From Halorussus pelagicus (lineage in GTDB: Archaea > Halobacteriota > Halobacteria > Halobacteriales > Haladaptataceae): a stretch of DNA of 58,328 bases. The DNA lies in assembly GCF_004087835.1 (NCBI RefSeq), contig NZ_CP035122.1, forward strand, positions 1 through 58,328, written 5' to 3'. The position numbers were made by a program, and so were the translations under genes. The notes beneath the pieces are model-generated. The model was not told the DNA's origin and did not search any database. It worked only from the letters and a program-made list of their open reading frames with translations. Below are positions 11,915 through 22,960 of this stretch, piece by piece; positions within the stretch are counted from its first letter, which is position 1; each line of letters begins with the position of its first letter.

Positions 11915-13048
11915 GTCGCAGAACCCAGAAAAGCCACCACGGCATTGAAACATGTCGGCGTACCTCGCGGGCACCATCCCGACGGTGGTCGCAGAACCCA
12001 GAAAAGCCACCACGGCATTGAAACATGTCGGCGTACCTCGCGGGCACCATCCCGACGGTGGTCGCAGAACCCAGAAAAGCCACCACGGCATTGAAACACC
12101 AGAACGACGCGCGAGTGGAACAGGAACAGAATGTCGCAGAACCCAGAAAAGCCACCACGGCATTGAAACAAGACCGAGGTCAAATCGTGCTGGCGTCGGG
12201 TCGGCGAGTCGCAGAACCCAGAAAAGCCACCACGGCATTGAAACGAGTCGGAGTGCGGATTCTCGGCGTTCTGGTGGTCGCGTCGCAGAACCCAGAAAAG
12301 CCACCACGGCATTGAAACTCCTGAACGTAGTCGAAGCCGGTTCGAAGGTCGGCGTCGCAGAACCCAGAAAAGCCACCACGGCATTGAAACACTCCGTCTG
12401 CGTTCGGGCACGCTCTTGGTAATGTCGCAGAACCCAGAAAAGCCACCACGGCATTGAAACAACGCGATGATCTGTTCGTCGAGGTCACCCTTCTCGAGTC
12501 GCAGAACCCAGAAAAGCCACCACGGCATTGAAACAAGACGCCTTCCGCCTGTCCTGCAATTTTGAGGAACGTCGCAGAACCCAGAAAAGCCACCACGGCA
12601 TTGAAACGTCGGGGTCGTTGCCCTTCTCGACAAACGGAACGACTGTCGCAGAACCCAGAAAAGCCACCACGGCATTGAAACCCGTCCCCTTCGCCGTCGC
12701 CGTTTCCGGGGACCCAACCGGTCGCAGAACCCAGAAAAGCCACCACGGCATTGAAACCTATCCTTGCCTCTGACGACGAAGTTTGAGTTTACCTGTCGCA
12801 GAACCCAGAAAAGCCACCACGGCATTGAAACACGAGCAATGCAACCGGAGTGTCGAAGTCGGAACGTCGCAGAACCCAGAAAAGCCACCACGGCATTGAA
12901 ACATTCAGGCCATGAGCCTCGGGATAATGGTGGACGGTCGCAGAACCCAGAAAAGCCACCACGGCATTGAAACTGCCCGAGCACAGCTTTGAGGTTGAAG
13001 GGCGGGAAGTGGTCGCAGAACCCAGAAAAGCCACCACGGCATTGAAAC
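11915..13048 (+). CRISPR. CRISPR array 2 (type I-D), 16 repeats, 15 spacers
   Basis: Repeats of 37 bp start at 11915, 11988, 12061, 12133, 12208, 12282, 12354, 12424, 12498, 12571, 12645, 12721, 12795, 12866, 12937 and 13012. The repeat begins GTCGCAGAACCC and ends GGCATTGAAAC. It differs from the array 1 repeat at three positions (5, 8 and 24). The first two spacers (11952-11987 and 12025-12060) are identical. No degenerate terminal repeat is seen after 13048. The spacers have no evident match elsewhere in this window by eye. Confidence 0.97.
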
Positions 13049-13403: not shown

Positions 13404-14750
13404 TCAATCATGCCCTCCAAAGAAATCCTTGACCTGCGTGTTGACTATCGACCTGAGCAAGCCTTCGTCACGTTCGACATCTTCGAGTCTGATATCTGTC
13501 TCGAGAGTCTCAGCGACGACTTCGGGATCATCAATGAATGTGTATTCTTTGTGGACACCGCTACCGTATCCACGGCCGCGTTTCTCGGACGTGACGAAAT
13601 TATACGTCTCCGCTTCTCTCATATACCGAAGATACGAATCACGAGACTTTTTCACGACATCTAGCATCTCGGTGAGAGATTGATAGACGCGGTATGCAAT
13701 AGTGTTCGGGACTGCGTTGAGATTCCGCTCGGAATAGATAGGGACGACGGCAGTGGCATAGAGCGAGAGTTTCTTCTGGGTCGAGAGTCCCTGCATCTGT
13801 GTCAGCGTGCGGTCGCGCTCGGCCTCCTCCTGCGCATCACGGACGTGCTCTTCTCGTACGGTCTCCTCGCTCCGGCGATCCGCAATCTCGCCAGCTTTCC
13901 GGAACAAGTCGATTGCTTTGCGTGCGTCACCGTGGTCCTGCGCCGCAAACGCCGAACTGAGTGGAATGATACCGTCTTCGAGGACGCCCTCCTGATAGGC
14001 GTCACGTCGTCGTTCCAGAATCGACTGGAGCTGGTTGGCATCATAATCTGAGAACACGACGTCTTGTGGATTGAAGGAACTTTCCGCTCGTCCATCAAGC
14101 TCCTCCATGAAGCGAGGGTCATTAGTGAGCGCAGCGACCGAGATGTGTCCCTCGATGTGGCCGAGTTGAGACGCTCGCGAGAGCTGATACAGCAATTTCG
14201 AGTACGCGGGTTCGTCGTTGGGGTCACGTTGACGGCCAACGAGGAGGTCAACCTCGTCAAGGATGATAATGACGGAGTCAAAGTGGTCACTCAAAATCTC
14301 GTAGAATCGATTCAACTTCCGGTCAGTCGAGACACCGCTTTCTGGAACGCCAGCCTCAACACCGGCTTCGACGGCCGCGTTTTCGACGAGTCGATAGACG
14401 GCACGGTCGTGGGATTTGATTGTCTGACAGTTGGTCTTGATGACGCCGAACTGGTCGCCTTGTGCGTCCGCCAGTTCGAGGATTTGCTGGCAGACGGCAT
14501 TGATAATAAGCGATTTCCCGGTCCCTGACGGACCGTAAAGAAGCATATTGGGAGGACGGTTGCCCTGAAGCACCGGTCGGAGATACGTGATGATGTCGTC
14601 TAGCTGTTGGTCGCGGCCGACGATTCTGTCTTCGTCGATGACGGCGTCTGGATCAAGCAGTCCCTTGTCTTTGAAGACGGAGTTCTGAACGCCTTCCTGA
14701 AGACGGCTCTTGATGGATTGGGAGAGGGACTGTTGGTCGTCATCGGCCAT
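13404..14750 (-). CDS. orc1: Orc1/Cdc6 replication initiator
   Basis: A 448-residue AAA+ initiator. Walker A is GPSGTGKS, Walker B is VIIILDEVDLL, followed by a sensor-1-like VAALTNDP. The C-terminal third carries the winged-helix domain (around YRVYQSLTEMLDVVKKSRDSYLRYM). Haloarchaeal plasmids typically encode a cognate Orc1 beside their origin. Here ORB-like repeats lie both downstream (13.22-13.38 kb) and upstream (14.8-15.4 kb). Autoregulation is likely because ORB copies sit in its own promoter region. Confidence 0.93.
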   Translation of the reverse strand: MADDDQQSLSQSIKSRLQEGVQNSVFKDKGLLDPDAVIDEDRIVGRDQQLDDIITYLRPVLQGNRPPNMLLYGPSGTGKSLIINAVCQQILELADAQGDQFGVIKTNCQTIKSHDRAVYRLVENAAVEAGVEAGVPESGVSTDRKLNRFYEILSDHFDSVIIILDEVDLLVGRQRDPNDEPAYSKLLYQLSRASQLGHIEGHISVAALTNDPRFMEELDGRAESSFNPQDVVFSDYDANQLQSILERRRDAYQEGVLEDGIIPLSSAFAAQDHGDARKAIDLFRKAGEIADRRSEETVREEHVRDAQEEAERDRTLTQMQGLSTQKKLSLYATAVVPIYSERNLNAVPNTIAYRVYQSLTEMLDVVKKSRDSYLRYMREAETYNFVTSEKRGRGYGSGVHKEYTFIDDPEVVAETLETDIRLEDVERDEGLLRSIVNTQVKDFFGGHD

Positions 14751-15557
14751 AGTAGCGATGAGTATGCCTCTACATAAATAGTTGCGGGAACCGTGTGCGA
14801 TATCAAATTCGGTGAATTCTGGGTATAGCAGGCTGATACAGAGAGCACAGTGAAGAGACGTTAGACCGTGGGCAAAGTCACCCTCGGAAGAGACCCCGCG
14901 TGCAAAATGAAAACGCGTAGTTACTCATAGTGTTTCTAATACAGAGTGTAAGCCATGAAAGACACGATTTCAGCGGGGTGAAAAGACGGAGAGTAACACA
15001 GAGCAAGGAAGTAAACGCTGGTCGAAACAAGTATAACGGATTCTTCATCAACCCCCACACCCCGTGTGCGAAATGAAATCGGTAGAGTAGTACGGAACGT
15101 TGCTAACAGTAGAAACGAGAGAAGTCTTGTTAGAGCAGCTAAAACGGTACTTTGTTGGAAGAGCACTTCGCTGAGACATTAATCAAGTAGAAATGATTTG
15201 ACTATAATGACGAGAAATGTGGATATTCATACAATAGCGACAAACTGCAGTGCGGATGTTGTTTAAAGAGTACAGGTATAAAGGTTTCTAATTATATAGC
15301 ATTCTTTAAAATCTACTGTAGAACTATTCTACCTGCTGAAATCCTGCGTTACCCGTGTATTTTGATTGAGTTCGACAGCACCCCACCCACACCTCCTGTC
15401 CAATTTCATTTCGCACACGGGGTGTGGGGGTTCTCTTTCTACCCGACTCTGCTCGCCAATGACAGCCTATACTACAATTGCGAGTACCCCCAGTTTGACT
15501 CTCGTGAATCTGCCGACCGCTTTTTTCACCACTTTCAACCACGATTTCCCCTCTCAC
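14751..15557. other. Replication origin: AT-rich stretch flanked by inverted ORB repeats
   Basis: This is the intergenic region between divergent orc1 and parA. ORB copies: a poor one near 14789-14811, then 14893-14913 and 15058-15079 on the plus strand, and 15403-15424 on the minus strand. Between the last two lies an AT-rich segment (about 15160-15340, with TTCTAATTATATAGC) suited to be the unwinding element. Oppositely oriented ORBs around an AT-rich core, next to orc1, is the standard haloarchaeal origin plan. A short ORF of about 76 codons across here is a shadow. Confidence 0.82.
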
Positions 15558-15616
15558 CTATTCCTGCTATTCATGAATAGCCTGCTATTCAAACTATCCA
15601 CGCTATCTATGGATAG
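15558..15616. promoter_or_regulatory. 9-bp-phased CTATT/AATAG array upstream of parA (candidate parS/operator)
   Basis: Pentamers of the type CTATT, AATAG, CTATC or GATAG start at 15558, 15567, 15576, 15585, 15594, 15603 and 15612, exactly 9 bp apart, in mixed orientation. This resembles the short phased, orientation-variable sites bound by ribbon-helix-helix partition proteins. It overlaps the parA promoter, so it may serve both partition and autoregulation. Confidence 0.65.
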
Positions 15617-15635
15617 CTATAAGTTAATCGCGTAG

Positions 15636-15703
15636 GTATCGACAGATAGTATGAGTAGTGAAAATAGCACGAATAGCATAGATAGAACAAATAGTCTGAA
15701 TAG
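15636..15703 (+). promoter_or_regulatory. 9-bp-phased AATAG/GATAG run overlapping the parA start
   Basis: AATAG-type pentamers start at 15645 (GATAG), 15654 (AGTAG), 15663, 15672, 15681, 15690 and 15699, again exactly 9 bp apart and here all in one orientation. An imperfect GTATC at 15636 keeps the phase. The run continues into the parA coding region, where it encodes the repetitive N-S-x residues at the N-terminus. Confidence 0.65.
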
Positions 15704-16589
15704 TCCATACGAAGCGCTCGACACCGACGGAAATTCTCGTGCTGTCTCCGTCTGCATGCTCAAGGGTGGTGTCGGTAAGTCAACTATCGCCGTCAACCTC
15801 GCTCGTCAACTCGCCGCTCACGACCATGACGTTCTTCTCATCGATCTTGACCCGAACGGCCACGCCTCTGTCGGCCTCGGCTTCGACGACCACTACCACG
15901 ACACCGACGAAACTATCGGCGATGTCTTCTTCAACGACGCCGATCCAACCACGACCATCTACAATACCGACCACCAGTTCGATATTCTTCCATCGACCGA
16001 GAACCTCGAACAAGTCGAACGCGAAATCGTCGTCGGAGACGTCTTCCAGCCGTCTGCCCTCCTCAAACGAGAAGTCATCGACCCACTCCTCAACGACGAA
16101 TACGACTTTATCGTCACCGACTCGCCAGCCTACCGCTCCCGGCTCACAGACAACGCCCTCGTCGCAACGACCAATCTCATTCTCCCACTCGCTCCTGGCA
16201 ACGAAGCCATGTCTGGACTCGAACGCACCATCGAACGCCAAATCTCCCCGCTCCGAAAGCACATGGACGTCGACGTCCTCGCACTCGTTCCGAACATGCT
16301 CAGCGGCCGCATCGACCAGCAAACCCAAGACCGTCAACTTCTCGAACGGCTCAACTCTCACGACAGCCTGCAGGACCGCATCCCCAACTTCGCCCGTATT
16401 ACCGACTGGGATGCCGTCGACACAGGCGACATTAACCCAACACCTGGAATTCGAGACCGGACCAGCATCACGAAAGCCTACGGCGAACGGAAACCGCTAC
16501 TGGATTACGATCCTGACTGTGACCAGCTGAAGTGCTTCGACGAACTCGCCCACATCGTCGAAGCTGGCGAGGTGGTCCGCCATGACTGA
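15651..16589 (+). CDS. parA: ParA-type partition ATPase
   Basis: A 312-residue deviant-Walker ATPase with KGGVGKST (residues 38-45), LLIDLDPNGHASVGL (Walker A' region) and FIVTDSPAY (Walker B). It should drive plasmid segregation by ATP-dependent DNA binding with a centromere-bound partner. The N-terminal 20 residues are low-complexity (N-S-x) and coincide with phased AATAG motifs, so that segment may be shaped by DNA function. Its stop overlaps the start of the next gene (16582). Confidence 0.9.
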   Translation: MSSENSTNSIDRTNSLNSPYEALDTDGNSRAVSVCMLKGGVGKSTIAVNLARQLAAHDHDVLLIDLDPNGHASVGLGFDDHYHDTDETIGDVFFNDADPTTTIYNTDHQFDILPSTENLEQVEREIVVGDVFQPSALLKREVIDPLLNDEYDFIVTDSPAYRSRLTDNALVATTNLILPLAPGNEAMSGLERTIERQISPLRKHMDVDVLALVPNMLSGRIDQQTQDRQLLERLNSHDSLQDRIPNFARITDWDAVDTGDINPTPGIRDRTSITKAYGERKPLLDYDPDCDQLKCFDELAHIVEAGEVVRHD

Positions 16590-16983
16590 CGATGACCCGT
16601 TCGCGGATCTCAGCCAGACACTCGAAGACGACTCCGACGAACAGAACGACACCGAGCCGTCGCCACACTCACAGACATCAACCGATGAATCCTCAGCCAA
16701 AGAATCACTTGAGGAACACGACCCGATGAAAGAGAGCGCGTTCATGTACGAGGAGGCCCAGCAACGTCCCTTCTACGCCCGTCAAGACTCCATTGAGGAC
16801 TTCGACTCGTGGCTGAACTATGAACTCGAACGGGAACTGAGCGAACGAGGCTACCAGAACATCGTTGTCCGCGAGATGACCGACGCACTCCTCCGGACCG
16901 TTGTCGAAGAAGACCTCGTCAACGAGGTCGCCGAACGATTCGAAGAAGCAAGAGAGCAGATATCCTCGCAATCGGACAAATAG
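16582..16983 (+). CDS. Small ParA-partner protein, putative centromere-binding factor
   Basis: A 133-residue acidic protein overlapping the parA 3' end by 8 bases. Residues 1-50 look disordered and acidic. Residues 60-128 (SIEDFDSWLNYELERELSERGYQ onwards) look like a compact strand-helix-helix unit, as in small DNA-binding dimers. I recognise no named family. Its place after parA and between phased AATAG sites (upstream and at 16992-17032) makes it the best candidate for a ParB-like or ribbon-helix-helix centromere binder. That function is inference from context. Confidence 0.7.
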   Translation: MTDDDPFADLSQTLEDDSDEQNDTEPSPHSQTSTDESSAKESLEEHDPMKESAFMYEEAQQRPFYARQDSIEDFDSWLNYELERELSERGYQNIVVREMTDALLRTVVEEDLVNEVAERFEEAREQISSQSDK

Positions 16984-16991
16984 CACCTCGA

Positions 16992-17032
16992 AATAGCCTG
17001 AATAGATTAAATAGCCTGAATAGCATTCTATT
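16992..17032 (+). promoter_or_regulatory. 9-bp-phased AATAG run downstream of the par genes
   Basis: AATAG starts at 16992, 17001, 17010 and 17019, then CTATT at 17028, all 9 bp apart. It is the third run of the same phased motif and flanks the other end of the parA-partner pair. The rest of 16984-17258 holds only promoter-like sequence (TATAAA near 17240) for the next gene. Confidence 0.65.
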
Positions 17033-21616: not shown

Positions 21617-22288
21617 GGTTTAATCCAACAAGGATGGGGAGGTCTGGAACAGCTAGCGTTTTAACTCGAAACGTGGGGTGTCGGTGCTTCCACTCAATAA
21701 AGATAATCTGGAATAGATAGCATTTTAACTCGAAACGTGGGGTGTTGGTGCTTCCACTCAATAAAGATAGTCTGAAATAGATAGCATTTTAACTCGAAAC
21801 GTGGGGTGTTGGTGCTTCCACTCAATAAAGATAGTCTGGAATAGCTAGCGTTTTAACTCGAAACGTGGGGTGTTGGTGCTTCCACTCAATAAAGATAGTC
21901 TGGAATAGCTAGCGTTTTAACTCGAAACGTGGGGTGTCGGTGCTTCCACTCAATAAAGATAATCTGGAATAGCTAGCATTTTAACTCGAAACGTGGGGTG
22001 TCGGTGCTTCCACTCAATAAAGATAATCTGGAATAGCTAGCATTTTAACTCGAAACGTGGGGTGTCGGTGCTTCCACTCAATAAAGATAATCTGGAATAG
22101 CTAGCATTTTAACTCGAAACGTGGGGTGTCGGTGCTTCCACTCGGCAAAGGTGGTCGAACGGAGCAAATACTGACAAACCACAAGACAGCGGTGGCTTCA
22201 ATCCCGAAAGTGGTCGTCTGGAACTACCGTGTACGAGTTGTTAATAACATGAGGAAGCAATTTCAATCCCACAAAGCTCATTCGGAAT
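21617..22288. repeat. 64-bp satellite and degenerate repeats: relic CRISPR-like array
   Basis: An exact-period 64-bp unit repeats with AACTCGAAACG starting at 21663, 21727, 21791, 21855, 21919, 21983, 22047 and 22111 (8 copies, over 90% alike). Each unit contains a segment beginning GCTTCCACTC and ending ATCTGGAAT (29 nt), which resembles the reverse complement of the common haloarchaeal type I-B CRISPR repeat. Better matches flank the satellite at 22195-22224 (GCTTCAATCC...GTCTGGAAC), about 22257-22288 (TTTCAATCCCACAA) and 21617-21650 (TTTAATCCAACAAGG...GTCTGGAAC). Spacing of 61-69 bp fits repeat plus spacer. It is non-coding, as 64 is not a multiple of 3. Confidence 0.6.
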
Positions 22289-22574: not shown

Positions 22575-22960
22575 TTAGCGCCTCTCGCGCCCATTTCTGG
22601 CCATTTCAGCCGAACTATCTTTGTGTCTGACCAATAGCTGGTCTCTGTGGAACGTGTTGTTCTGGCGTTTTAGCGTCGCTTCTACAGATTCGTGGCCATT
22701 TCGGCCAATTTTCGCACTGAGTTCCGATCCCCCGGATAGTCGCATTCGTACACAATTAAATACTACCTTTGTGTTCGGAATGTTGTTCTCGCATCTTAGC
22801 GTCCCTACTGCCAATTCGTAGCCATTTCGGCCAATTTTCGCACCGAGTTCCGATCCCCCGGATAGTCGCATTCGTACACAATTAAATACCAACTTTGTGT
22901 TCGGGATGTTGTTCTCGCATTTTAGCGTCTCTACTGCCAATTCGTAGCCAATTAGTGAAT
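22575..22960. repeat. Three tandem copies of a ~126-bp sequence
   Basis: Two copies (about 22690-22820 and 22821-22950) differ at few positions, each with TTCGGCCAATTTTCGCAC and CCCCCGGATAGTCGCATTCG. A third, more diverged copy precedes them from about 22575. The minus-strand ORF across this region is open because 126 is a multiple of three, but its composition (few acidic residues) is not haloarchaeal, so I do not call a gene. The remaining sequence at 22290-22574 and 22961-23190 shows nothing recognisable. Confidence 0.7.

Follow-up and report, generated by a model that had tools for sequence, protein, structure and literature searches.

Three arrays of pentamers on a 9-bp step surround parA on a haloarchaeal plasmid, and they are best read as a putative centromere and operator for the small partner protein encoded next to ParA. 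We assign a probability of about 0.8 to a type Ib-like partition locus, composed of a Walker ATPase without an N-terminal DNA-binding domain, the small partner, and a three-block centromere of 9-bp-phased pentamers. Three features of that type were found together, namely a Walker ParA without a matched N-terminal helix-turn-helix (HTH) domain, a small gene directly downstream, and repeats at and upstream of the promoter. The stretch analysed, referred to as the window, is the whole 58,328-base contig 4 of a four-contig genome of 3.49 Mb. It reads as a haloarchaeal plasmid because it contains orc1/cdc6, an MCM gene, Cas1, CRISPR-like repeat arrays, and a type I restriction-modification set. The CRISPR-looking arrays have a period of about 73 bp, lie in opposite orientation at 575-1380 and 11915-12973, and flank a region that includes Cas1 (1779-2774).

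Three arrays on a 9-bp step and their conservation

The parA gene (15651-16589, forward strand) encodes a Walker-type ATPase of 312 residues, whose residues 30-201 match AAA_31 (PF13614, E 6.9e-30). A family-profile search matched no HTH domain before residue 30. The partner gene (16582-16983, forward strand) overlaps the parA stop and encodes a candidate centromere-binding protein of 133 residues, which has relatives but matched no family. Array 1 (15558-15616) lies upstream of the parA promoter and contains seven [AG]ATAG/CTAT[CT] units starting at 15558, 15567, 15576, 15585, 15594, 15603, and 15612. Their orientations are mixed (<<><<<>), and the degenerate unit is present at 7/7 positions, with strict AATAG/CTATT at four. 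Array 2 (15645-15703, forward strand) covers the parA start codon and first codons. Its seven positions (15645, 15654, 15663, 15672, 15681, 15690, and 15699) all point forward, and six carry [AG]ATAG (four strict); the exception is AGTAG at 15654, which is AGTGG in many relatives. Array 3 (16992-17032), 3' of the partner gene, has five units, all strict AATAG/CTATT, in the orientations >>>><. One more AATAG (16979-16983, forward strand) holds the partner stop codon, and its distance to the next unit is 13 bp instead of 9. A TATA-like element, TATAAG (15618-15623, forward strand), stands between arrays 1 and 2, 28-33 bp ahead of the parA ATG. By its sequence and position, it is probably the promoter of a near-leaderless transcript.

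The earlier note had described three pentamer runs on an exact 9-bp step, and the description held, with 7/7, 6/7, and 5/5 units fitting and only step 9 yielding runs. Across the window, step 9 gave exactly three [AG]ATAG/CTAT[CT] runs, with uninterrupted lengths of 7, 5, and 5, and no run of at least three units was found anywhere in the window at steps 6, 7, 8, or 10 to 15. No run exceeded 2 units in resampled sequence, whether in 200 first-order resamples of the complete window or in 2000 resamples of the region 15301-15760. A same-strand search of the whole 3.49 Mb genome returned six NATAG triples at 9 bp, all at the par locus, and the reversed control pattern occurred 0 times genome-wide.

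Two other tandem repeats were observed in the window. At 21643-22143, a 64-bp unit is present in 7.8 near-identical copies (97%) with a GAAACGTGGGGTGT stretch; it contains seven AATAG, 0 of them on the 9-bp step, and no open reading frame of at least 200 codons lies there. It is possibly an origin or another maintenance element. Adjoining it, at 22655-22950, a 126-bp unit is present in 2.3 tandem copies (91%).

The earlier note had asked whether other haloarchaeal parA genes carry like phasing, and the answer was positive. Relatives of ParA and the partner were found in a plasmid collection, in Halobacterium, Haloarcula, Haloplanus, Natrinema, and others. Relatives of the partner lie directly behind parA. 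They occur (E≤1e-4) in 142 of 391 genomes of the class, and 35 of those 142, the genome of the window included, carry a close partner (E≤1e-34). We assembled 35 close loci, window included, 28 from close-partner genomes and 7 from named plasmids, with some duplicates. Units were counted on a 9-bp phase, with one missing unit permitted between neighbours, and array 3 was counted to about 110 bp beyond the partner stop. Copies of the window's genome or its paralogues (L001-L004) were left uncounted, and two loci, L014 and L029, were excluded from unit counts and recoding because no intact parA was found upstream of their partner gene; L014 keeps its downstream array. At least three units were present in array 1 at 34/34 loci (upstream sequence being too short in L036), in array 2 at 35/35, and in array 3 at 34/35, window included; these locus counts are not independent events, since L030/L040, L025/L026, and L005/L038 are the same or nearly the same plasmid. 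The partner stop codon falls within an NATAG unit in 33 of the 35. As a control, 111 windows of 218 bp inside parA each held at most 1 unit. Multiples of nine prevailed among unit spacings upstream of and at the parA start (272 at 9 bp and 241 at 18 bp), and TTATAAG or GTTAAG was seen by eye between arrays 1 and 2 in most loci, roughly 30 bp ahead of the ATG.

An unsupervised period measure gave period 9 in 27 of 37 close loci and no period above threshold in the other 10. Of the 35 close-partner genomes, 25 contain the same-strand triple-unit pattern (in G121, away from the partner). The pattern was also found in 59 of the 356 other genomes, and its reversed control in about 33 of all 391. 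Some triples in the 59 other genomes lie at other par loci (G338 contig 56 and G065 contig 1).

The par locus adjoins orc1/cdc6 (13404-14750, reverse strand; TIGR02928, E 1.2e-114), which ends about 0.8 kb before array 1, and a 33-nt inverted repeat stands about 0.1 kb before the array. The arms of the latter (15050-15082, forward; 15400-15432, reverse) are 97% complementary and separated by 317 nt, and we take them to be a possible Orc1 binding element of a replication origin. The region beside orc1 (14791-15432), which has three 18-nt direct repeats (CCGTGTGCGATATCAAAT type) in addition to the inverted repeat, is probably that origin. This proximity would suit iterons or Orc1-related elements of the adjoining origin as an account of the arrays, as would two plasmid records (H1 and H2) in which one match covers both orc1 and ParA. 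However, the arrays stay by parA and the partner gene in seven named relatives with differing neighbours (TnpB, helicase, AbiE, and others), the displayed stretches of these relatives have no annotated orc1/cdc6, and the array word tends to track the partner's subfamily. An origin function of the arrays is therefore very unlikely.

Selection on the DNA of arrays inside two kinds of genes

In the window, the parA frame has its earliest start codon at 15651 (ATG), and array 2 is therefore most likely translated, reading as N-S-x and D-R-x. In pNRC100 (L034, 2501-2567), the public annotation begins parA 66 bases after the conserved ATG, and the annotated ParA thus comes without the array-coded N-terminus.

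Codon usage was compared between parA codons 1-24 and 25-300 in 34 loci. L014, L029, and L015 (frame-disrupted parA) were excluded, and codons of L032 and L039 were numbered from the site aligned to the ATG of the window, which precedes their own ATG by a few codons. Asn was encoded by AAT in 120 of 122 cases at the start versus 145 of 414 in the rest of the gene, Ser by AGT/AGC in 165 of 212 versus 149 of 553, and Arg by AGA/AGG in 24 of 28 versus 13 of 581. We then recoded the genes synonymously, with the protein unchanged and codons sampled from those of the gene itself. The parA runs of 35 loci contained 116 phased pairs, compared with a mean of 1.2 and a maximum of 5 in 500 recodings. For the window parA alone, the observed 4 phased pairs were matched by 0 of 5000 recodings. 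The run at the parA start is under selection as DNA. The earlier note had explained the N-S-x repeats of ParA by the DNA pattern, and the codon bias together with the recoding result (116 pairs against at most 5) supports this: the repeats are a consequence of the pattern. Because 9 bp equal three codons, the array passes through the gene with the frame intact, and arrays in open reading frames appear as tripeptide repeats.

A second gene type showed the same behaviour. Contig 3 of the same genome, which is plasmid-sized (111,878 bases), encodes a ParA of 28-33% identity together with a partner that gave no credible match to any family; relatives of this partner occur in 139 of 292 genomes at E≤0.001. 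Period 9 was the best period in 30/30 of the best second-family loci, with AACGA and overlapping words leading. Upstream of parA, 29 of the best 30 loci have an array of three or more [AG]ACGA/TCGT[CT] units, and all 30 have one inside the partner gene, where it reads as S-E-T and N-E-T repeats. The second-family partner genes contained 94 phased pairs versus a mean of 10.8 and a maximum of 24 in 500 recodings, so that here too the DNA itself is under selection. Very divergent members reached p≤0.01 in only 4 of 19 loci (L126, with no parA found, being left out), indicating that over such a divergence the pitch rule weakens or shifts in place. Low-complexity tripeptide tracts (such as DET, SET, and KPS) were seen in the linkers of several of these very divergent partners (L117-L136).

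These data bear on two other explanations. One holds that the coding part is a protein feature, with N-S-x and S-E-T selected as peptides and the DNA pattern a by-product. The second-family repeats do fall in a low-confidence linker of the predicted structure, which is probably disordered, and low-complexity peptides are common in such regions. Yet the phased units are lost on synonymous recoding, the codon preferences for Asn, Ser, and Arg at the parA start are the reverse of those in the rest of the gene, and the same word stands in the DNA upstream and downstream of the operon. We regard selection on the peptides as hardly credible.

The other explanation treats the arrays as an operator only, through which the partner or ParA represses the operon, with the centromere elsewhere or absent. 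In its favour, blocks 1 and 2 extend across the region of the TATA element and the start codon, and the type Ib plasmid TP228 uses a single protein both to coat its centromere and to repress the operon (PMC7308502, excerpts). Against this stand block 3, which lies behind the operon in 34/35 loci, and the second family's block inside the second gene in 30/30 best loci, both being positions that no operator needs. An operator without a centromere is thus unlikely, though less remote than the origin and peptide explanations.

One pitch with different words

More distant loci were analysed as a divergent set of 40, with ParA 28-52% identical. ParA was found in 40/40 and a partner gene was called directly behind it in 38; one locus (L046) was dropped as a near copy of L044, leaving 39. 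Direct 5-mer repeats at 9, 18, 27, and 36 bp numbered 253, 209, 138, and 113 in these 39 loci, against a background with a mean of 14.0, a standard deviation of 10.4, and a maximum of 49. Windows inside the divergent parA genes showed no such series, and inverted 5-mer repeats at multiples of 9 bp stayed at background level. The latter result suggests that divergent arrays mostly have one orientation and that mixed orientation marks the window's subfamily. Period 9 was the best among periods 5-20 in 30 of the 39 loci and reached p≤0.01 in 29; of 78 coding control windows, 6 had 9 as their best period and a single one reached p≤0.01 for it.

Within 300 bp upstream, the 9-bp signal fell short of p≤0.01 in ten of the 39 loci, with two at 0.012. 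When the ten were rescanned along their length, a strong array appeared in L068, about 600 bp upstream, and a weaker one in L073, at about 380 bp, and L047 and L050 peaked within the 3' part of parA; the remaining six gave no convincing array.

The array words differ among the divergent loci and tend to track the partner's subfamily. An AATAG-type word occurs with KQSPIYAR partners (two loci) and AGCTA with VQAQIYPR partners (3/3), ATAAT is among the leading words, often weakly, in 6 of 7 VHKALYVL loci, and TAGGT or AGGTG is found in several other divergent loci. A third family (L076), whose partner has N-E-S and H-E-S repeats, was tried as a further case of an array through coding DNA and rejected, as the tested word gave 0 phased pairs.

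The pitch is thus one and the words are several: AATAG in the window, AACGA on the second plasmid, and, in other loci, words resembling TAGGT/AGGTG, AGCTA, or ATAAT. We consider it likely that haloarchaeal plasmids share a centromere grammar, in which a 9-bp pitch combined with a family-specific pentamer is read by the partner and written through coding DNA (the parA start or the partner linker) as tripeptide repeats. The pentamer would then be an address, kept in pitch and changed in word among related plasmids, and the word would set compatibility.

The partner protein, its proposed action, and known partition sites

The partner has an acidic N-terminal half modelled with low confidence, followed by a C-terminal part predicted as an extended stretch and three helices. 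In the AlphaFold2 model (33 sequences), secondary structure begins only at residue 68 and confidence is lowest at residues 28-42; the helices span 68-88, 96-109, and 113-132, mostly with high confidence. F-x-D-L is near-invariant at residues 7, 9, and 10. In the YAR motif, Y65 is invariant and R67 nearly so. In place of YAR, the VHKALYVL subfamily has YVL, and its leading word contains no G, which is a hint only. The model of the second-family partner resembles that of the window partner. In a profile comparison of the two families, the C-terminal halves aligned with an E of 0.07 and a probability under 1%, and homology is unsupported.

Searches of Pfam, NCBIfam, and PDB sequences with the partner returned chance-like matches only. 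PDB profile searches gave, as best matches, a proteasome subunit (E 0.011) for the window family, aligned to the acidic part and the beginning of the C-terminal domain, and an E of 0.087 for the second family, and an HMM search of PDB chains with the window partner found no ParB. In PHROGs, 9 of 34 members of the partner family matched a family of unknown function (best E 0.0049). Foldseek gave one match at E 7.1 for the window model and no E below 3.1 for the models of both families, and no partner relative was confirmed in viral contigs. Neither HMM nor Foldseek matched the partner to a ribbon-helix-helix protein, and the second-family model was likewise unmatched.

The earlier note had compared the locus with those of ribbon-helix-helix partition proteins. 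That the partner is such a protein is unsupported so far, the Pfam, NCBIfam, and PDB matches being chance-like and the only Foldseek match standing at E 7.1. In a ribbon-helix-helix dimer, the strands pair only between chains, and an extended stretch followed by two helices would therefore fit such a dimer. The first helix is, as we judge it, long for this fold. We give the ribbon-helix-helix fold about even odds.

In the proposed partition mechanism, the C-terminal domain of the partner would bind one unit per 9 bp, each unit presumably taking one dimer, and partner molecules would align side by side along a block regardless of unit orientation. Their acidic N-terminal tails, with F-x-D-L, would be presented to nucleoid-bound ParA, which would move the plasmid. 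By analogy with δ-ω and ParF-ParG, it is most likely that the partner coats the blocks and offers its N-terminal tails to ParA. Binding to blocks 1 and 2 would also repress the operon, as would be expected from their position on either side of the TATA element and from the overlap of block 2 with the likely start of transcription.

The parH site of TP228 has a pitch of about 8 bp. pCXC100 of Leifsonia, which has a type Ib ParAB, reportedly carries nine uninterrupted 9-nt direct repeats bound by a ribbon-helix-helix ParB, and the pitch of the window agrees with that spacing. Compared by description, not sequence, the window differs from pCXC100 in its mixed orientations, three blocks, and coding overlap. 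The pCXC100 site consists of direct repeats only, according to excerpts of a review (PMC5016525). As in TP228 ParF-ParG-parH, where excerpts of PMC7308502 describe tetramer boxes with AT-rich spacers coated by a small operon-repressing protein, short units are arrayed in the window; TP228, however, is an enterobacterial plasmid with another pitch, and ParG is a ribbon-helix-helix protein. In R388, StbA-bound 9-bp direct repeats (stbDRs) lie around a promoter and are needed for plasmid stability, but they are 2 nt apart, giving an 11-bp pitch (excerpts of PMC3098194).

The parS of pSM19035 consists of 7-10 heptads, WATCACW, and excerpts of PMC9499535 state that at least four contiguous repeats are required for ParA activation in the ω system; the uninterrupted runs of the window number 7, 5, and 5. 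The window shares with δ-ω contiguous short non-palindromic repeats of variable orientation, a Walker ATPase, a small binding protein, and promoter-overlapping sites, as far as the same excerpts describe that system (PMC9499535). It differs from pSM19035, a Gram-positive plasmid whose ω has a 7-bp pitch, is a ribbon-helix-helix protein, and has sites described at promoters in the part of the literature consulted, by its 9-bp pitch, by runs through coding sequence, and by a different word in each family. The [AG]ATAG/CTAT[CT] unit formed no run at the ω step of 7 in the window, only at step 9.

Among archaeal partition systems, AspA-ParB-ParA of pNOB8 and SegAB likewise have ParA-type ATPases, but AspA uses a winged HTH to bind a 23-bp palindrome and also spreads, and SegB binds imperfect palindromes (PMC5120986, excerpts). 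Short-unit arrays are not mentioned in these excerpts (PMC5120986), whereas the site in the window is such an array and its partner has no family match.

The earlier note had called a 9-bp archaeal version overlapping a coding region undescribed, a claim that is now weakened. The pitch alone is not new, given the site reported for pCXC100; the changing pentamers and the coding overlap are without precedent in the literature searched. Titles and the beginnings of abstracts in the open literature, including few subscription journals, revealed no recognised haloarchaeal plasmid centromere of this kind.

Under this grammar, a centromere candidate could be predicted from sequence in many haloarchaeal plasmids, pNRC100 of Halobacterium salinarum NRC-1 among them. 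Mutual exclusion between plasmids would likewise become simple to predict. At both kinds of genes, a function at the level of DNA is imposed on the protein sequence as repeats.
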